DNA of 64,000 bases from Aquificota bacterium. GTDB lineage: Bacteria > Aquificota > Aquificia > Aquificales > Hydrogenothermaceae. Of the stretch, positions 23,341 through 31,880 are shown piece after piece (the stretch's first letter is position 1; each line of letters begins with the position of its first letter). The position numbers and the translations under genes are program-made. The notes beneath the pieces are model-generated. The model searched no databases, was not told the DNA's origin, and saw only the letters and a list, made by a program, of their open reading frames with translations. The stretch covers positions 1 to 64,000 of the forward strand of contig JAADDZ010000020.1 of the NCBI GenBank assembly GCA_013153635.1. Reading direction: 5' to 3'.

Positions 23341-24105
23341 TTATAAAGTAAAAATTCGGTAGAAAGTATAGAAAACTACAGATGCGAAGATAAGAGCATC
23401 TATCCTATCTAACACACCTCCATGCCCGGGGATAATCTGTGAAGAATCTTTTACATTTACTTGTCTTTTTATAAAACTCTCAAACAAATCTCCTATCTGC
23501 ATGATGACAGCAGATATTACTATAGGCACGTACGCACTACCAATACCAAAATAGTAAGCGACTCCTCCTCCAAAAATTATCGAACCTAAAACACTTCCTA
23601 AAGCTCCTTCCCAAGTTTTCTTTGGGGATAGTTTTGGTGCTAGTTTTCTCTTTCCAAATTTTTTCCCTATAAAATAGGCAAAAGAATCACCAGCCCAAAC
23701 TGTGGCAAACAGTATTAAAACTAGTCTTTTGTCTATTTCGTGTAAAAAGCCTAGACTACTAACAATGACTACTCCGTATAAAAAGATAAATCCAAGATAG
23801 GATAGGTAGTTAAGGTTATACTCTTTGTAAGACCACCAAAAACTGTACAAAATCCATACAAGAACAGCTAGATAAAAATCTACATAGAAAAGAAGAATTG
23901 CACAGATAAAAGAGAAAAAAGCTATCGGTACAGGTTCTAAAGAGAACAAAACCTTTTTAAATAGATTAGAAAGTTCCCAAACTGCTATTCCTATAACTAT
24001 AGAAATCAAAAATTTGAATATGTAAGAAGGAAGGTACAATACACTCCCAACAGCCAAAATTCCTAATATGAAACCGGTGATAGTCCTTTTTAGGAGGTTT
24101 TTCAA
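23341..24105 (-). CDS. cdsA: Phosphatidate cytidylyltransferase
   Basis: 254-residue polytopic inner-membrane enzyme making CDP-diacylglycerol for phospholipids. The C-terminal signature is clear: PKKTWEGALGSVLGS and GDLFESFIKRQ...SQIIPGHGGVLDRIDALIFA. Six or more hydrophobic segments precede it. Start overlaps the uppS stop by 4 bases, the usual uppS-cdsA pairing. Confidence 0.93.
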   Translation of the reverse strand: MKNLLKRTITGFILGILAVGSVLYLPSYIFKFLISIVIGIAVWELSNLFKKVLFSLEPVPIAFFSFICAILLFYVDFYLAVLVWILYSFWWSYKEYNLNYLSYLGFIFLYGVVIVSSLGFLHEIDKRLVLILFATVWAGDSFAYFIGKKFGKRKLAPKLSPKKTWEGALGSVLGSIIFGGGVAYYFGIGSAYVPIVISAVIMQIGDLFESFIKRQVNVKDSSQIIPGHGGVLDRIDALIFASVVFYTFYRIFTL

Positions 24106-24806
24106 ATTTCTATCCTTCCAAACCTTCTTTCTCTGTTTTGGTAATCATAGAGAGCTTTTAAGAACTCCTCTTCATCAAAATCTGGCCATAAGACTTCAGT
24201 AAAGTACAACTCTGAATAGGCAAGTTGCCATAATAAAAAGTTAGAGATTCTAACCTCTCCACTTGTTCTAATAAGAAGGTCTGGGTCTGGGACATCTGGA
24301 AAATAGAGATAATCTCTAAAAGATTCTTCTGTTACACTGGATATACCTTTTGAAATTATCTTGTTTACAGCATCTATAATTTCTGCTCTTCCGCTATAGT
24401 TAAGAGCTATGATAAGATTCATGCCTGTACAATTTGATGTCTCCTTTTCTGCCTTTTGTATGGTCATTACAATACTTTGAGGAAGTTGTTCTTTTCTACC
24501 TAAAAATCGTAAATTTATGTTTTTCTCTACTAAAGAATCTAACTTGTTATCTATATAGTCAACTAAAAGTTTTAATATAAAATTAACTTCCTCTTGGGGT
24601 CTCGCCCAATTTTCTGTAGAAAATGCAAAAAGTGTTAAATATTTTATGCCTAATTCTGAAGCAAAGGTTATAGCTTTTTCTGCGGCTTTTGCTCCTTCTT
24701 TATGTCCAAAGACTCTAGGAAGTCCCCTTTTTTTTGCCCATCTGCCGTTACCGTCCATAATAATAGCAACATGGCTTGGCAGTTTATATATATTGTGATG
24801 TTTCAA
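24102..24806 (-). CDS. uppS: Undecaprenyl diphosphate synthase
   Basis: 234-residue cis-prenyltransferase. HVAIIMDGNGRWAKKRGLPRVFGHKEG near residues 12-38 holds the catalytic Asp and Asn; LTLFAFSTENWARP and DLLIRTSGEVRISNFLLWQ are also intact. Supplies the lipid carrier for peptidoglycan and surface glycans. Directly upstream of cdsA. Confidence 0.95.
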   Translation of the reverse strand: MKHHNIYKLPSHVAIIMDGNGRWAKKRGLPRVFGHKEGAKAAEKAITFASELGIKYLTLFAFSTENWARPQEEVNFILKLLVDYIDNKLDSLVEKNINLRFLGRKEQLPQSIVMTIQKAEKETSNCTGMNLIIALNYSGRAEIIDAVNKIISKGISSVTEESFRDYLYFPDVPDPDLLIRTSGEVRISNFLLWQLAYSELYFTEVLWPDFDEEEFLKALYDYQNRERRFGRIEI

Positions 24807-24817
24807 TGTTAGACCTT

Positions 24818-25066
24818 TTATCTCTGTTTTAGTAATTTTTTTAATTTTTCTATTTCTAAGGAATTTTGAGCGGTTTTTTGGGATAGTTCATCTACCCTAA
24901 CAGATAAAACTTCTATCATCTCTTTTAGATTTGTATTTTCTCTTTTTAATTCTTTTACAGACCTTTGAACATCTATAAGAGCATCTTGTAAAGCTCTTAC
25001 CTCATCTTTAGATGCACACCCATACATCACAACTGCTACAGCAGGAATTAATAATAGTTTTCTCAA
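24818..25066 (-). CDS. Small coiled-coil lipoprotein
   Basis: 82 residues. The signal ends in a lipobox VMYGC (Cys17), followed by one long heptad coiled coil (DVQRSVKELKRENTNLKEMIEVLSVRVDEL). Size and shape recall Lpp-like envelope lipoproteins, but sequence identity to them is not claimed. TTG start with AAGGAGG upstream. Confidence 0.7.
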   Translation of the reverse strand: MRKLLLIPAVAVVMYGCASKDEVRALQDALIDVQRSVKELKRENTNLKEMIEVLSVRVDELSQKTAQNSLEIEKLKKLLKQR

Positions 25067-25081
25067 TTTAAAAACCTCCTT

Positions 25082-25282
25082 TTATTTTAAAGTCAAGAAT
25101 ATAACAAATATTACTACAGAAATTGCTCCGATTAGAAGGATAGACATTTCAAGTAAAAAGAACGCTTCTGTAGAGAGATTATGTTTCATAAGAACTCTAT
25201 CTAGGAATATAAATAAAAAAGGTAAAAAACCTATAAAACCTATCGAAATTATAAGATAAAATGGGTTTATCTTCTTTTTCAT
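25082..25282 (-). CDS. Small two-helix membrane protein
   Basis: 66 residues with two hydrophobic segments (about 8-28 and 41-64) joined by a charged loop. No family recognised. It lies between the nitrilase (1-base gap) and the lipoprotein gene (15 bases), so it is probably expressed with them. Confidence 0.5.
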   Translation of the reverse strand: MKKKINPFYLIISIGFIGFLPFLFIFLDRVLMKHNLSTEAFFLLEMSILLIGAISVVIFVIFLTLK

Positions 25283-25283
25283 A

Positions 25284-26027
25284 CTAATAGTCCATCTTTA
25301 TTTTCTTTCTTACTTTATAAATATCTGCTAAATCTACTTCTGTTTCAAATAAACCCTCTTCTTCATTTGAAAAAACAAGGGTTTCCCCCCATGGAGAATA
25401 TATCCCTGAAGCTCCAGCATACTCTACATTTCCTATCTTTCCCACAGTATTACTAACAACTACAAAAGATTGAGATTCTACAGCTCTTGCTTTTGACAAA
25501 ATCTCTAAATGTTCCTTTCTGCTTTTTCCCCATTGAGCTGGGACAAGTATAATCTCCACTCCTTTACGCCTCAATGTGTAAGATATGTTAGGGAATCTAA
25601 GCTCAAAACATATCATCATTCCTAAATTTCCCATTGAAGATTCGGCAATATCAAATCTACTATTACCAGACACAAAAAATTTGTGTTCTTTTGTAGGTTT
25701 AAAAAGTTTTACTTTATCTTGTCTGTGAATAACGTTCCCACAATCTATAATAAATCCTTTATTTACTATACCTTTTTTGTTCTTCTCTGGTAGAGTTCCT
25801 GCAATAACCAACTGTTTTTCTTTAGATAGTTTTTTTAGCTCTTTATAGATATTTTTCGTTCTTTGAACGTGTTTGTCTAAATGTTTATTGTCAAATCCAC
25901 AACTCCACATTTCAGGTAAAAGAACCAAAGAGTTAGGCTTTGCTCTTTTTAGAAAGTCAAATATTTTCTCTACATTCTTATCAACATTACCAAGCTTTAG
26001 ATTTGTTTGTATTGTAGACAATCTCAT
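25284..26027 (-). CDS. Carbon-nitrogen hydrolase (nitrilase superfamily)
   Basis: 247 residues with the Glu-Lys-Cys triad: LLPEMW (Glu near 38), KVKLF (Lys near 107) and MMICFELRFP (Cys near 140). Related to omega-amidase / YafV-type enzymes, which clean up deaminated glutamine or methionine products. Substrate not provable from sequence. First gene of the minus-strand operon reaching 19847; its promoter must lie in the 168-base divergent gap before DUF505, where no strong minus-strand -35 was seen. Confidence 0.8.
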   Translation of the reverse strand: MRLSTIQTNLKLGNVDKNVEKIFDFLKRAKPNSLVLLPEMWSCGFDNKHLDKHVQRTKNIYKELKKLSKEKQLVIAGTLPEKNKKGIVNKGFIIDCGNVIHRQDKVKLFKPTKEHKFFVSGNSRFDIAESSMGNLGMMICFELRFPNISYTLRRKGVEIILVPAQWGKSRKEHLEILSKARAVESQSFVVVSNTVGKIGNVEYAGASGIYSPWGETLVFSNEEEGLFETEVDLADIYKVRKKIKMDY

Positions 26028-26133
26028 TGTGATACTCTATAGTACAGAATTTTATCTTGATATTTTATCATATATTGAAATTATTAAAATAAGCACCTTT
26101 AGTATGACCTTTATAAGAAATTTTAGTTAACTA

Positions 26134-26163
26134 TTGACAAATTTTGCATTAAGACACTATAAT
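26134..26163 (+). promoter_or_regulatory. Consensus sigma-70 promoter of the DUF505 gene
   Basis: TTGACA (26134-26139), 18 bases, TATAAT (26158-26163): both hexamers perfect. A 10-base palindrome TAGTTAACTA (26124-26133) abuts the -35 and could be an operator. GGAGGG at 26181-26186 precedes the ATG at 26196. Strong expression is expected. Confidence 0.8.
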
Positions 26164-26195
26164 GTAAGAAAAATTTATTTGGAGGGTGCAAATAT

Positions 26196-28142
26196 ATGAT
26201 TCTTAGAAAAGAACATATCAACGCTTTACTCACAGTTAAGGCAGAAGAGGAATCAGGAAGAGCTTGCTACATAAAGCTTCATGCAGAAAGCGAGCCTTTT
26301 ATAGAACTAGAATTTCAAAACCTTTTAGAACAGAGAAACCCCTTGGAGTTTGTTATGACTTATTGGGGAAAGAGAATAGTGAATATTTACACAGAGATGG
26401 TGGAAAAAGGACTTATTGACCCTATATCTGACTGGGACGATAGATTTAGATGGATTGGGTCAGAAATCATAGCTATGATTGATGCTTCGGTAAGAAATGA
26501 CGACCTACCGGGAAAATATATCCAAGATGAACTTATAAAAAGAGGGTTTGCTCAACAGATAAAAGAAGAAAAAAAGGGTACTTTCATAAAAGTAAATGAG
26601 TATGCCAAAGAGATATACAACATCTACAAAAATTCTAGACCAAGATTAACAATATCAAAAGACCTTGCACACTATATATCAAATATGCCTCCAGGTCCTG
26701 CAGAGACAAGTATGCTACCGGAACATGGCAGATTTCCTATCCTCATGGAGAGTATGAGACTACTATCCTTTTCTGTACCTCAATCAGATGTATACACTCT
26801 AAGTGGTTTAGGACAGGAAGTTCAACAAGTTATTCAAAATATGGCACCAGCATTCGAAACGGTGATAAACGAAGATTACATGTATTCATTGATTAAACTA
26901 TTAGACAAAGGTATATCAGCTTTAACAACAGATGAGATAGAGCTGTTAGAAGCTTTAGCCTTTATAGACAAAGACGGAAATATACTCAAAGCTGGTGAGC
27001 ATCTTTTACATGTGTATCATTTATGGAATGAAAAAGCATACAGACCTGTTAAAACTTTTAACCTAGAGACCCTCGACGAAGAAATTCTCAAAATTATAGT
27101 AGAAATATGGAAAAAACATGAACAGAATCCAGAGATTGTACCAACAGTAGAAGAAATCGTTCACTACTTGTTAGAAAAACCTTTAAAAGAGTACAAACAC
27201 CTAAAAGAGTTTTACGGTAGACAGCTCAATCAAGCCTTAGGTTACCAAAAGAAAGAAGAACTAAAAAAGAAATTCGAAGAGTTGTTTACAGTCGAGGAAC
27301 TATTCAAACATTTTTGGGAAAAAGGTGGTCAATGGTATGAAAAGATGTATGACACCGTAGAAGAATCCCTTTTTACATTGGAAGCGTTTGACCTTATTGT
27401 ATCTCACGAGCAAAATGGAAAAAGAGTTTACAAACTTACAGAGTACGGGAAAGAAGTTCTATTAGAAGATATAAAAGTCCATGGAATCAGAGATATTCAT
27501 GCTCCTGCTGTAAAAGCGGTAAATATTACAAAAACAGAGTTTGGCGCTCCAAACTACCAATGGTACAAAGAGGCAGAAGAAACACATCTCATAGGAGGTG
27601 GTTATCCTACAAAATCTGGAAAACTATATGGAGAGTTATCCTATAAGATAAAAAGGAAACCTCATCTTACTAGGTTTGAACTCCAAATCTTACATAAACT
27701 ACCAGAAAAAGGATATTTAGTTGACGATATATACAACGATTTTGATGAAACATTAAAAGAAGAAATAGAATTTGGACTCAACAAATTAGAAGCGAGAGGT
27801 TTTTTAGATATATTACCTAACAATGCCATTGTCCTTACAGAAGCAGGAAAACTTATAAAAAAGGCAACCTCTGGAGTCCCAGAAGGATTAGGAAACCCTG
27901 TAAACCCACTGATAGTAAGGATTCTTGAAGCGTTAGCAAAAGTAGGAAACCTATATGTAAAAGAAGAAAAAGTTAGAATTTTACCTAAAAACTGGGAACA
28001 AGCTATCAAGCTCTCTGGTCTTGATAAAGAAACATTTGAAAAAGAGTTAGCTGTAGCTAGAATCGCGAATTACATAGGAAAATCAAGTATAAACGAGGCT
28101 GGTTTATTAATTTTGAAAGCTTATGAACTTATAAATCAATAA
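26196..28142 (+). CDS. DUF505-family protein
   Basis: A 648-residue soluble protein. I recognise it as DUF505, a family known mainly from Aquificales and archaea; its function is not established. It contains repeated winged-helix-like segments of the form ...LIxxL..G...LTEAGK: residues 405-440 (LFTLEAFDLIVSHEQNGKRVYKLTEYGKEV), 490-555 (TRFELQILHKLPEKGYLVDDI...IVLTEAGKLI) and similar elements near 220-275. No signal peptide, membrane helix or nucleotide loop. It stands alone behind a consensus promoter and ends with a terminator at 28178-28203 that lies inside mqnC. Confidence 0.75.
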   Translation: MILRKEHINALLTVKAEEESGRACYIKLHAESEPFIELEFQNLLEQRNPLEFVMTYWGKRIVNIYTEMVEKGLIDPISDWDDRFRWIGSEIIAMIDASVRNDDLPGKYIQDELIKRGFAQQIKEEKKGTFIKVNEYAKEIYNIYKNSRPRLTISKDLAHYISNMPPGPAETSMLPEHGRFPILMESMRLLSFSVPQSDVYTLSGLGQEVQQVIQNMAPAFETVINEDYMYSLIKLLDKGISALTTDEIELLEALAFIDKDGNILKAGEHLLHVYHLWNEKAYRPVKTFNLETLDEEILKIIVEIWKKHEQNPEIVPTVEEIVHYLLEKPLKEYKHLKEFYGRQLNQALGYQKKEELKKKFEELFTVEELFKHFWEKGGQWYEKMYDTVEESLFTLEAFDLIVSHEQNGKRVYKLTEYGKEVLLEDIKVHGIRDIHAPAVKAVNITKTEFGAPNYQWYKEAEETHLIGGGYPTKSGKLYGELSYKIKRKPHLTRFELQILHKLPEKGYLVDDIYNDFDETLKEEIEFGLNKLEARGFLDILPNNAIVLTEAGKLIKKATSGVPEGLGNPVNPLIVRILEALAKVGNLYVKEEKVRILPKNWEQAIKLSGLDKETFEKELAVARIANYIGKSSINEAGLLILKAYELINQ

Positions 28143-29230
28143 AATTTCTTTATAATCTTGTAATATGTATCTCTTTGGGCTGGTTTAAAACCAGCCTCTT
28201 TTATTATCTTTGCCATTTTTTCAGGTTTAGGATAGGAGACTTGAAGACCTGTAGAACTAACTACATTTTCTTCTATCATAGTACTTCCTAAATCGTTAGC
28301 TCCAAAATGAAGTCCTATAGGACCTACTTTCATAGTTTGAGTAACATGGGAAGTTTGGATATTGCCAAAATTATCTAGATATATTCTAGCTATAGCTAGG
28401 ACTCTAAGATAGTATACAGAGGTAGCATCAGGTAAATAATCAAGCTTTGTGCCACCTTTTTGAAAAGTCCAAGGTATAAAAGCGGTAAAACCTTTTGTAA
28501 TATCTTGAAGTTTTCTAATATGTTCAAGATGTTCTATTATATGTTTTGGTTTTTCTATATGTCCACACATCATCGTTGCTGTAGTTTTCATTCCTAGATT
28601 ATGAGCTAATCTATGAACTTCTAACCACTGGTTCGTGGTAGTTTTATTAGAAGATATAAACACTCTAACCTCATCAGAAAGTATCTCTGCTCCTCCTCCG
28701 GGAAGACTATCTAAACCTGAATCTTTTAGTATCTTTAGTACTTCTTGTATACTAAGTTTCTCTATTTTTGATAGATAATTTATCTCTGTGGCAGAAAGAG
28801 AATGTATCTGAACTTGGGGAAACCTTTCTTTTATACCTTTGAACAGAGTTGTATAAAAATCCAATCTCAAATCTGGATTTAGTCCTCCTTGCATCAAAAG
28901 GGTAGTTCCCCCCCATTTGAGTAACTCTTCTACTTTTTTATATATCTGTTCAAAATCTAAAACATAAGCATCTTTATCTGTTTTTTTTCTTTGAAAAGCA
29001 CAGAACTTACAACCTGCCACACATATATTGGTGTAATTTATGTTTCTATCTACAACGAAGGTTACCAGATTATCTTGATGCTTCTTTTTCCTAATATGAT
29101 TTGCAAGAAGACCTAGGGTGTTTAAGTCTGCGTGTTCAAAAAGGTACAAAGCCTCTTCATATGATATTCTCTTATCTTGAATGACTTTGGAAAAAATCGC
29201 ATCTATATCAGATGATACCGTATTTCCCAT
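28136..29230 (-). CDS. mqnC: Dehypoxanthine futalosine cyclase (menaquinone synthesis)
   Basis: 364-residue radical SAM enzyme with CVAGCKFCAFQRKK (near residue 70) binding the 4Fe-4S cluster. The HSLSATEI and LDSLPGGGAEIL blocks are typical of the MqnC/MqnE/CofG-H group; GFTAFIPWTFQKGGTKL fits MqnC. It cyclises dehypoxanthine futalosine in the futalosine route to menaquinone, the respiratory quinone. Transcribed alone or from the end of the pil cluster (49-base gap with a TATAAT at 29272-29267). Converges with DUF505, overlapping 7 bases. Confidence 0.9.
   Translation of the reverse strand: MGNTVSSDIDAIFSKVIQDKRISYEEALYLFEHADLNTLGLLANHIRKKKHQDNLVTFVVDRNINYTNICVAGCKFCAFQRKKTDKDAYVLDFEQIYKKVEELLKWGGTTLLMQGGLNPDLRLDFYTTLFKGIKERFPQVQIHSLSATEINYLSKIEKLSIQEVLKILKDSGLDSLPGGGAEILSDEVRVFISSNKTTTNQWLEVHRLAHNLGMKTTATMMCGHIEKPKHIIEHLEHIRKLQDITKGFTAFIPWTFQKGGTKLDYLPDATSVYYLRVLAIARIYLDNFGNIQTSHVTQTMKVGPIGLHFGANDLGSTMIEENVVSSTGLQVSYPKPEKMAKIIKEAGFKPAQRDTYYKIIKKFY
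28178..28203 (+). terminator. Intrinsic terminator of DUF505, inside mqnC
   Basis: GGCTGGTT/AACCAGCC, an 8-9 bp GC-containing stem with a tiny loop (28178-28196), followed by TCTTTTATT. It is 36 bases after the DUF505 stop and within the last codons of convergent mqnC (GFKPAQ region). Confidence 0.75.
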
Positions 29231-29251
29231 AAAATAAAACCAATAGATTTA

Positions 29252-29272
29252 TTACTTAATAAGTAAATTATA
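29252..29272 (-). promoter_or_regulatory. Putative -10 and palindrome before mqnC
   Basis: On the minus strand TATAAT (29272-29267) is followed at once by TTACTTATTAAGTAA (29266-29252), a palindrome with 7-base arms at the expected transcript start. No good -35 is visible, so promoter strength is doubtful. The palindrome could be an operator. Confidence 0.3.
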
Positions 29273-29279
29273 AACTATT

Positions 29280-29870
29280 TTACATACACAAGTTTGGAAT
29301 GCCTTCCTCAATTCTATTCCTTATATCAAGTGTAAAGTCTGTACTTACTTGGAAATTTTCGTCATAGTATACCTCAACTACATCAAAAGTTACTTTTACT
29401 TGATATGTACCTACTAAATTGTTTAAAAAGAAATACTCTTTTACCTCCTGTGTTATTACAGGAATAACTACAGTAGTCTCTAAGTTTTCTCCAAAAATAA
29501 CTGTAGGAATATCTACTTCTAATGGTGGTATTGGTTCATAAGTATCCTTTTTGGGCGTATAATTTAGCGTAGCTTTTACTATTCTGACGCTAGAAGGGTC
29601 TAGGTTTGGAAGAATAGGAGTGAGTTTAAAGTACACTTCTAAAGTTTCCTCTGGTGGGATAAATATCCTATCTCCAGCATCTCCACAGATTTCATTTTCA
29701 TTTTCATCGTAGATAGCAATTATATCTGATTGAATAAAGGATACCCCGTTAGTAGAAGCTGTTACCAATACAGACACACCAGTATCAGCTCCTCCCCCTA
29801 CGTCACATGAAGAAAAACTAATCATTCCTGCTAATAATGGCAGTAGAGCTAATCTCTTTAAAAAAGACAT
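29280..29870 (-). CDS. Lipoprotein at the end of the pil cluster
   Basis: About 196 residues. The signal peptide ends in a lipobox FSSC (Cys near 22), followed by a beta-rich domain (PPEETLEVYFKLTP, VVIPVITQEVKEYFF, YQVKVTFDVVEVYY). No family recognised. Two ATGs in a row follow AGGAGGAG; the second (29870) has better spacing. It begins 9 bases after pilQ, so it may be a pilotin-like or pilus-associated lipoprotein. That role is inferred from position only. Confidence 0.6.
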   Translation of the reverse strand: MSFLKRLALLPLLAGMISFSSCDVGGGADTGVSVLVTASTNGVSFIQSDIIAIYDENENEICGDAGDRIFIPPEETLEVYFKLTPILPNLDPSSVRIVKATLNYTPKKDTYEPIPPLEVDIPTVIFGENLETTVVIPVITQEVKEYFFLNNLVGTYQVKVTFDVVEVYYDENFQVSTDFTLDIRNRIEEGIPNLCM

Positions 29871-29879
29871 CATCTCCTC

Positions 29880-31880
29880 CTATTGATATATGATTTTTGG
29901 AGTTATAAATATCAAAAGTTCTCTATTTGTACGATTTATAGATTTACTTTTAAAGAGATTTCCTACTATAGGTATCTTACTTAGTCCCGGCACACCCTTT
30001 TGCTGGTTGAAATCTTCTTTTTCTAAGATTCCTCCTATTACAACTGTAGAGCCATCTTTTACCACTACTTTACTGGTGATAGCTTTGGTTTGTATAGGTA
30101 TATTCCCAGAGATTGTATTTTTAAAATCTGGTATGTCTTGGGTTATAGTAAGATTAAGGATTATGTTACCATCGATGGTAGTTCTTGGGGTTACATTCAG
30201 TCTTAAAACTGCCTGCTTAAATTGTACAGTAGGAATTGTAGTTCCTCCAGCGGCGGCGGCTATCACATATGGTATCTCAAATCCTTGAGAGATTTCTGCA
30301 GGTTCTCCATCTATAGTAACGAGTTTTGGTCTAGAGAGTATCTTTGATTTTCCTATCTGTTCTAAAGCTGTTAATCTAAGGTCTAGATTATCTGTTAATG
30401 TTCCTATCAAAATTCCAATAGCGGCTCCTGTTCCCGGGGCAACATTTCCAGCAGGAAAGTCAAACATATATGAATTTCCTGTCATACCTGTATTTAGACC
30501 TACTCCTGATGTAACATAGGTTGCTCCGCCTAGACTTCCTGAAGAGTTAACACCCCACTGTATACCTAAATCTCTTTTGTAGGAAGATTCTATCTGAACA
30601 ATTCTAGCCTCTATCTCTACTTGATATGGTCTATCTAGTAGAAAATCTGCATAATCTTTTTTCACTCTCTCTATTATCTCTGGTTTGTCTGTGATACATA
30701 CCTTTGGAAGAGAAGTTATAATCTCATCTTCTATGGTTCTACTTTGGGACATATTTCCCATACCTGTTCTACCCGGCTGTATTCTAAGAGATTTTCCTTT
30801 TACTTTTGAGGTTGTTTTTATAGTCTTAAATACTACTGTTCCATATTTGGATAGGTAGTTTTCTTGTATATTTAAAATTATCTCTGATGGTTCTAAAGCT
30901 CTAGAGTAAAAACATCTCGTTATAAGTTTAACTCTCTTTGCTTTTGCTATTATTTTACTTAGTTTTGGTATGTTAACTCTCTTATCTACGATGATAAGCT
31001 TACATTTTTTCTCGTCAAAATCATACCTTCCAAAGTCTGATAAGGAAACGATAAGCTCATCTTCTATCTCCTTAAATTGGTCTTTGCATATGTCTACTTC
31101 TTTTTTTATCAGTTTTTCTTCTATTTTTCTTCTCTCTGCTTCTGCTTGTTGCTTTTTGAATTCTTCAGCTTTTCTTATTCTTTCCTCTTCTAATAAAGCA
31201 CTTGCTTTACTCTCTAAAGATTGTACGTATGGATATATGAGATTTATCGCTTTTATTATTGATTCTTTGTCATACCTTGCATAAATGGTAAATGATGTAT
31301 TGTTTATAGTGATAGTTGCCGTTTTAGGGAGGCTTTTTCTAAACATGGAAACGATATTTTCAAAAGCTTCTCTGCCTAAATATTTTATTACAGCTGGGTG
31401 GATAGATATATATACTTCCGATGCTACTTTTATTCTGTATAGTCTTCCCCTTGGTATGGCTATTAAGCCATTATTGTATATAGAAAAGGAGGATTCAATA
31501 TTAGAGGTGACTTCTAATCCTGCCTTATCCTTACCTGAAGAAACTACTGTTGTTCCAGATACATTGTGACTTCTCGATAGAGAAAAAGAAACATTCTCGA
31601 CTTTGTAAGGACCTACTTCTTTTAGAATAGTATTAAAAAGTTCGTAAACTGATAGGGGTCTTTCTACACTTAGGTATACTCTTTCTTCATCTTTTGACCC
31701 AAGTTTTACCTCTTTTACAGCATTTTTGTCCCAAATAATGTTTGTATGGGACACTTTTGCAAGTGTGTCAATAACTGTTGATATTTTTGCACCGTAGAAT
31801 TTTGCACTTATTTTTGACTTTGCGTATGATAAAGGGACTGTTATTAGTATAGCTAATATAATTATCTGTTTTATTTTCAT
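29880..31880 (-). CDS. pilQ: Type IV pilus secretin PilQ
   Basis: 666 residues with a signal peptide (MKIKQIIILAILITVPLSYA). An N-terminal STN/N0-like domain (KFYGAKISTVIDTLAKVSHTNIIW, about 27-90) is followed by a central region including a Lys/Glu-rich coiled coil (about 225-265). The C-terminal secretin domain has VEIEARIVQIESSYKRDLGIQWGV, SRPKLVTIDGEPAEISQG, VVKDGSTVVIGGILE and VPGLSKIPIVGNLF (about 420-655). It forms the outer-membrane pore for pili or DNA uptake. The last member of pilM-N-O-P-Q in order. A GspD-type secretin is the alternative; the neighbours favour PilQ. Confidence 0.87.
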   Translation of the reverse strand: MKIKQIIILAILITVPLSYAKSKISAKFYGAKISTVIDTLAKVSHTNIIWDKNAVKEVKLGSKDEERVYLSVERPLSVYELFNTILKEVGPYKVENVSFSLSRSHNVSGTTVVSSGKDKAGLEVTSNIESSFSIYNNGLIAIPRGRLYRIKVASEVYISIHPAVIKYLGREAFENIVSMFRKSLPKTATITINNTSFTIYARYDKESIIKAINLIYPYVQSLESKASALLEEERIRKAEEFKKQQAEAERRKIEEKLIKKEVDICKDQFKEIEDELIVSLSDFGRYDFDEKKCKLIIVDKRVNIPKLSKIIAKAKRVKLITRCFYSRALEPSEIILNIQENYLSKYGTVVFKTIKTTSKVKGKSLRIQPGRTGMGNMSQSRTIEDEIITSLPKVCITDKPEIIERVKKDYADFLLDRPYQVEIEARIVQIESSYKRDLGIQWGVNSSGSLGGATYVTSGVGLNTGMTGNSYMFDFPAGNVAPGTGAAIGILIGTLTDNLDLRLTALEQIGKSKILSRPKLVTIDGEPAEISQGFEIPYVIAAAAGGTTIPTVQFKQAVLRLNVTPRTTIDGNIILNLTITQDIPDFKNTISGNIPIQTKAITSKVVVKDGSTVVIGGILEKEDFNQQKGVPGLSKIPIVGNLFKSKSINRTNRELLIFITPKIIYQ

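Follow-up and report, generated by a model that had tools for sequence, protein, structure and literature searches.

DUF505 (PF04458) and UPF0128 (TIGR00703) are named protein families without an assigned function. A literature word search for DUF505 returned matches that concern DUF5059 or look unrelated by title, and searches for UPF0128 and for the phrase 'bacterial prefoldin' returned no match. The DUF505 gene considered here is encoded in a stretch of 64,000 nucleotides (nt), referred to below as the window, of a Hydrogenothermaceae bacterium (Aquificota bacterium, GenBank assembly GCA_013153635.1, contig JAADDZ010000020.1, positions 1 to 64,000). It was compared with its counterparts in a sample of 136 Aquificota genomes and 14 named control genomes. 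In Aquificota, a tie between DUF505 and a module of prefoldin genes is well supported by shared operons, by promoter DNA and by a nested distribution. This module comprises UPF0128, a stand-alone RAMP-like protein (C32), prefoldin alpha and a divergent prefoldin beta.

Distribution and operons of DUF505 and the prefoldin genes

The sequence-only reading had recognized a large DUF505 protein, and this is borne out: the open reading frame (ORF) is real, codes for 648 amino acids (aa) and matches PF04458 end to end (1-622 of 622 profile positions; 789.6 bits for a cut-off of 28.7; E 2.7e-237). A single copy is encoded in the 1.69-Mb host genome. In the whole sample, DUF505 is present in 65/136 Aquificota genomes (43 of the 88 of good quality) and, among the controls, only in Thermotoga maritima and Methanocaldococcus jannaschii, the latter of which also encodes UPF0128 and prefoldin. 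Prefoldin alpha exceeds the family cut-off in 47/136 genomes (48 at E 0.001; a weak match in G036 was excluded) and UPF0128 is likewise found in 47/136. DUF505 is present in 45 of the 47 prefoldin alpha genomes and in 45 of the 47 UPF0128 genomes (Fisher test, 8e-18, ignoring shared descent), with G017 (78% complete) and G110 (86% complete) as the two exceptions.

DUF505 is lost or broken repeatedly. Indeed, (i) it is split into two matches in two ORFs in the one-contig genome G025 (L069), (ii) it carries an in-frame TGA stop in G031 (L026), (iii) its promoter remains while the gene is gone in G111 (L120), and (iv) the promoter is followed by a short stub only in G022 (L121). A plasmid search found no DUF505 on plasmids.

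Families and genera are numbered below; f1 and f5 are those that we infer to be the Hydrogenothermaceae and the Desulfurobacteriaceae, and f2 is the one that we take to be the Aquificaceae. An operon shared by DUF505 and prefoldin genes is found in genus g18 (three loci) and in f4 (one locus read), and not in the window genome. In the three g18 loci (L084, L085, L086), the gene run is C7, C6, UPF0128, C32, a prefoldin-beta-like gene and, last, DUF505; prefoldin alpha heads this run, in two loci according to clustering and in the third (G066) according to a family search. In the fourth g18 locus (L088), only C7 and C6 precede DUF505. In f4, one locus (L087) has a prefoldin alpha gene, together with a small ORF that we read as prefoldin-beta-like, directly upstream of DUF505. 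Apart from DUF505, operons that hold UPF0128, C32, prefoldin alpha and prefoldin beta together are also present: among 15 loci examined, 11 have an order with UPF0128 first, 2 have the g18 order and 2 (f3) have UPF0128 with none of the others nearby.

Prefoldin alpha of the window genome is a clear member of its family (TIGR00293, E 1.1e-27), and the prefoldin-beta-like subunit, of 71-99 aa, is short and has diverged strongly. C32 of g18 resembles Csm5 around a GSxxKxAxxxA segment (E 1.7e-6 with NCBIfam, 4.5e-7 with PADLOC), at a score below the family cut-off (27.8 bits vs 38.3 for TIGR01899, Csm5). A second C32 member had no match in PADLOC, with an E threshold of 1 the Pfam RAMP family was matched by only 1/11 C32 members, and Csm5 chains were among the best Protein Data Bank (PDB) matches for C32, none of them significant. 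Compared with the PDB, the UPF0128 profile matched numerous cytochrome c chains (E 0.003 and above); these matches were judged spurious.

Other genes that adjoin DUF505 were also noted. C6 and C7, probable membrane proteins with no Pfam match, adjoin or precede it in two families (L073-L075, L084-L086, L088). C1, a protein of 357-374 aa that belongs to no known family and apparently has two similar halves, follows DUF505 in 10/12 f5 loci (L072-L076, L078-L082).

Promoter and locus of DUF505

The features of the locus in the window are the following:
26196-28142, + strand: DUF505 (PF04458) gene, ORF of 648 aa with a profile match
26134..26163, + strand: sigma-70-type promoter TTGACA-18-TATAAT, 12/12 consensus, TTGACA starting at 26134 and TATAAT ending at 26163
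26181..26186, + strand: Shine-Dalgarno sequence GGAGGG, its last base 9 nt 5' of the DUF505 ATG
26124..26133, no strand: 10-base palindrome TAGTTAACTA abutting the -35 hexamer, at chance level and not conserved
28177..28197, + strand: intrinsic-terminator-like hairpin and T tract, inside the 3' end of mqnC (other strand)
28136..29230, - strand: mqnC (menaquinone pathway), convergent neighbour, not part of the system
25284..26027, - strand: carbon-nitrogen hydrolase, divergent neighbour, not part of the system

The promoter of DUF505 is strong and conserved beyond chance, as supported by several counts. Exact promoter pairs with a spacing of 16-18 nt occur four times in the 1.69-Mb genome (two per strand; one for a reversed-pattern control), and, according to our own reading of the ORF lists, only that of DUF505 precedes an evident gene start at a usual distance (62 nt). 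An exact TTGACA lies between -110 and -15 in 21 of 30 orthologue upstream regions, that of the window included (0.6 expected in shuffled sequence), and the mean of the best promoter scores is 10.3/12, compared with 8.7 in shuffles. The perfect consensus with 18-base spacing claimed by the sequence-only reading is confirmed, and a strong promoter is kept in the orthologues.

The same reading had described an operator-like palindrome. It does abut the -35 hexamer, but palindromes of 10 bases are at chance level (62 in the window; the 168-nt intergenic region, when shuffled, contains at least one in 43% of cases), and TAGTTAACTA is absent from the same place in the DUF505 upstream regions of other genomes (30 + 17 regions inspected). 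It was rejected as a conserved operator and should be dropped as independent evidence. Together with the T at 26123, it gives TTAGT where most Hydrogenothermaceae orthologues have ACTAA, and TTAGT is also found at this position in G001, G002 and G003. In genera g1 and g2, window palindrome included, TTAGT occupies the exact place (-11 to -7 relative to the -35 hexamer) that ACTAA has in other genera, a swap that would fit a symmetric site but is based on one evolutionary event.

Most Hydrogenothermaceae DUF505 promoters have ACTAAAAT-N3, or a near form of it, directly before TTGACA. In four genomes, the exact element is found at DUF505 and nowhere else, and a form with two mismatches precedes UPF0128 in G024 and G015. 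The looser pattern ACTAANANNNNTTGACA, searched in 41 Hydrogenothermaceae genomes, has 38 exact matches, of which 16 precede DUF505 by 51-67 nt (g4, g5, g7, g8, g9) and 12 precede UPF0128, in the UPF0128-prefoldin operon, by 101-124 nt (g2, g5, g7). The 10 other sites comprise two DUF505 remnants, one Hsp20 gene, one DUF1931 gene, one tRNA-Lys gene and five sites in regions that we read as coding. The total number of matches is close to that of the reversed control; what carries the signal is therefore where they lie, not how many there are.

Half-sites, defined as ACTAA or its complement TTAGT up to 20 nt before or up to 18 nt after TTGAYA, were counted at 13/16 DUF505, 6/11 UPF0128, 11/22 Hsp20, 1/1 DUF1931 and 7/85 other sites; these seven include one Hsp20 gene with a misjudged start and one dnaJ. 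The background in 400 kb of G024 is 7/80, one of the seven being a tRNA-Met promoter. The DUF505 genes of G011 and G013 have TTAGT after the -35 hexamer, as many Hsp20 genes do, and the Hsp20 gene of G011 has the DUF505 form. Of 10 second Hsp20 genes retrieved, six were readable, and this promoter type was not found at any of the six.

At one locus of G023, a DUF1931 gene (L123:299-745, + strand) with a ACTAAAAAAACTTGACA element lies near a dnaJ gene (L123:1642-2802, - strand) with TTGACA-N9-ACTAA. In a passage of one published source, DUF1931 is placed in a histone category (PMC11390915).

As to transcript structure, the description of DUF505 as monocistronic holds for the window and for the Hydrogenothermaceae, where the gene stands alone between neighbours that change, but not for some other relatives, in which it is part of operons. 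No operon partner was found within the window, and the adjoining genes differ between genera. The 'own' terminator is a real hairpin of 9 pairs followed by CTTTTATTAT, but it is positioned within the convergent mqnC, which overlaps the DUF505 end by 7 nt on the opposite strand. The hairpin is also present in G002 and G001, with one compensatory pair change in G001 (read by eye). No Rfam match was found across 24000-30500.

Codon usage was examined with the codon adaptation index (CAI), with 24 ORFs as reference, taken from the ribosomal-protein region of the host genome. This region was located via L2 because ribosomal protein S7 (PF00177) was not matched in the assembly (G000, 96% complete), which is probably due to an assembly gap. 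Among the window ORFs of 100 aa or longer, DUF505 ranks 34/58, at -0.55 standard deviations from expectation. Since its codon usage is average, the suggestion that it is an abundant protein finds no support in this measure, and no proteomic data on the protein were located.

Winged-helix-like segments

The orthologue profile scan (29 DUF505 orthologues) gave weak matches to DUF4364 in 23, to HxlR in 20, to HTH_45 in 19 and to PadR in 18 of them. These weak winged-helix matches lie mainly at residues 385-447; further HxlR pieces are located at 46-72 and 193-220. The HxlR total reaches 26.4 bits in one orthologue, summed from sub-threshold pieces, and no winged-helix family exceeds its curated cut-off in the window protein (best, 15.7 bits vs 26.9 for DUF4364). 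Not all weak matches are meaningful, because Archease (17 orthologues) and RRM_DEAH11 (16) also appear. Furthermore, a motif of the wing-plus-LTxxG type (wing and following helix), in a pattern defined after the sequence had been seen, occurs five times in DUF505, compared with 0.3 times per shuffle. The corresponding segments, all on the + strand, are:
26349..26378: wing-type motif FVMTYWGKRI, aa 52-61 (profile and motif search)
26586..26615: wing-type motif IKVNEYAKEI, aa 131-140 (motif search)
26793..26822: wing-type motif YTLSGLGQEV, aa 200-209 (profile and motif search)
27345..27497: best winged-helix-like segment, aa 384-434, including YKLTEYGKEV (profile and motif search)
27828..27857: wing-type motif IVLTEAGKLI, aa 545-554 (motif search)

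Judging from the sequence, DUF505 is likely a chain of several winged-helix-like units. The repeated winged-helix-like segments proposed earlier find backing in weak profile matches and in five wing motifs, but no such profile match in the window protein passes its cut-off.

A model of fragment 350-432 has the order helix-helix-helix-strand-strand at a predicted local distance difference test (pLDDT) score of 50, and a Foldseek search with this low-confidence model gave no significant match (best PDB match, E 0.78). A search for solved relatives of DUF505 found none; the best profile match, a type III secretion needle protein (E 0.06), was judged to be due to chance.

Proposed role, alternatives and known systems

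We tentatively favour the view that the prefoldin module has DUF505 as a partner, a protein of several winged helices and no enzymatic activity, whose mechanism can be sketched as follows. The strong promoter of DUF505 would give a high rate of production and would be subject to the control that drives the module, and DUF505 and the module could have a joint function. To judge from promoter similarity, the shared control would perhaps be a regulon for proteostasis or stress that extends to Hsp20 and DnaJ. The protein itself may serve as a scaffold that binds nucleic acid, or protein in an unfolded or unassembled state, and prefoldin may deliver the partners of this scaffold or keep them soluble, perhaps during assembly of a nucleic-acid-protein complex; these last steps are the least certain. 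An extended version appears improbable. In it, thermophilic Aquificota would retain an archaeal-type assembly system of prefoldin, UPF0128, the stand-alone RAMP-like protein and a multi-winged-helix DUF505 scaffold, which would build or protect a complex of nucleic acid and protein; a single stress-linked promoter code, possibly read by DUF505, would govern the system.

Several observations weigh against the proposed partnership. In most genomes DUF505 is located away from the prefoldin operon, and in the window genome, where this operon is present on contig C13, the C32 gene is shrunk to an ORF of 65 aa (L089:2213-2410), while 12 other operon copies match over nearly the full 240 aa. No prefoldin alpha match is found in 20 of the 65 DUF505 genomes and T. 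maritima has DUF505 without UPF0128 or prefoldin, so DUF505 is not dependent on the module. The ACTAA element is absent before DUF505 of the window genome, the ACTAANANNNNTTGACA total is about equal to that of its reversed control, and no obvious common element is seen at DUF505 and UPF0128 in f5. The element before tRNA-Lys (G018) and the TTAGT form before tRNA-Met (G024) fit an element of strong promoters, similar to an upstream-promoter (UP) element, with no regulator involved. As to the fold, comparison of the DUF505 profile with itself by HHalign revealed no repeat above noise (E 0.21, probability 0.3%), an argument against regular repeats, and AlphaFold2, run on the whole protein with three sequences as input, gave a mean pLDDT of 35 and no usable structure.

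A first alternative, which seems rather unlikely, is that DUF505 is an abundant stand-alone protein with a strong housekeeping promoter, that ACTAAAAT is a UP element, and that co-occurrence with prefoldin reflects common ancestry or losses common to lineages. The proximal subsites of UP elements lie directly at the -35 hexamer, and the element does abut it; besides the tRNA sites, the wider spread of DUF505 than of prefoldin and its monocistronic state in the Hydrogenothermaceae fit this explanation. However, the exact element is found almost exclusively at two transcription units in each genome (28 of 38 sites), operons link DUF505 to prefoldin genes in two other families, and average codon usage does not suggest abundance.

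It is improbable that DUF505 is an enzyme or another metabolic protein with a superficial likeness to winged helices: the matches are below cut-off, save for the HxlR total in one orthologue, and the fold models are uninformative, but no enzyme family is found among the Pfam and NCBIfam matches and no operon with metabolic genes is conserved. About as doubtful is the explanation that DUF505 is itself a DNA-binding regulator acting on ACTAA/TTAGT half-sites at its own and the UPF0128-prefoldin promoters, which would fit its multiple winged-helix-like units, the occurrence of the element both at the DUF505 promoter and at that of one further operon, and the opposite orientation of the half-site at the same place in g1 and g2, but is opposed by the large size of the protein for a simple regulator, by G110 (which keeps the element before UPF0128 although DUF505 was not found in this 86% complete assembly), by the UPF0128 and Hsp20 promoters of the window genome, where exact element forms were not seen, by the differing promoter DNA of f5, where DUF505 is conserved, and by the tRNA promoters that also carry the half-site or element.

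The scaffold or nucleic-acid-binding role suggested by the sequence-only reading may hold, and the gene context adds to it the link with prefoldin. This link provides a first testable idea of DUF505 function. Once placed with a bacterial prefoldin, the two orphan families become a system open to testing, and one may ask what role an archaeal-type co-chaperone plays in bacteria.

Compared with known systems, (i) the window protein is like the PF04458 members of T. maritima and M. jannaschii in its full-length match (622/622) and single copy, while the UPF0128, RAMP-like and prefoldin context is established for Aquificota only; (ii) DUF505 shares a repeated wing and following-helix motif with the HxlR and PadR winged-helix regulators, but has several units in one chain of 648 aa, with scores below cut-off; (iii) C32 is like the Csm5/RAMP proteins of type III CRISPR (clustered regularly interspaced short palindromic repeats) systems around GSxxKxAxxxA, but stands below the cut-off and in a prefoldin operon, no search having been made for nearby CRISPR genes; and (iv) as in the archaeal-type prefoldin (GimC; PF02996/TIGR00293, TIGR02338), a clear prefoldin alpha is encoded, but here it is encoded in bacteria, with a short and divergent beta-like subunit, and in an operon with UPF0128 and a RAMP-like gene.

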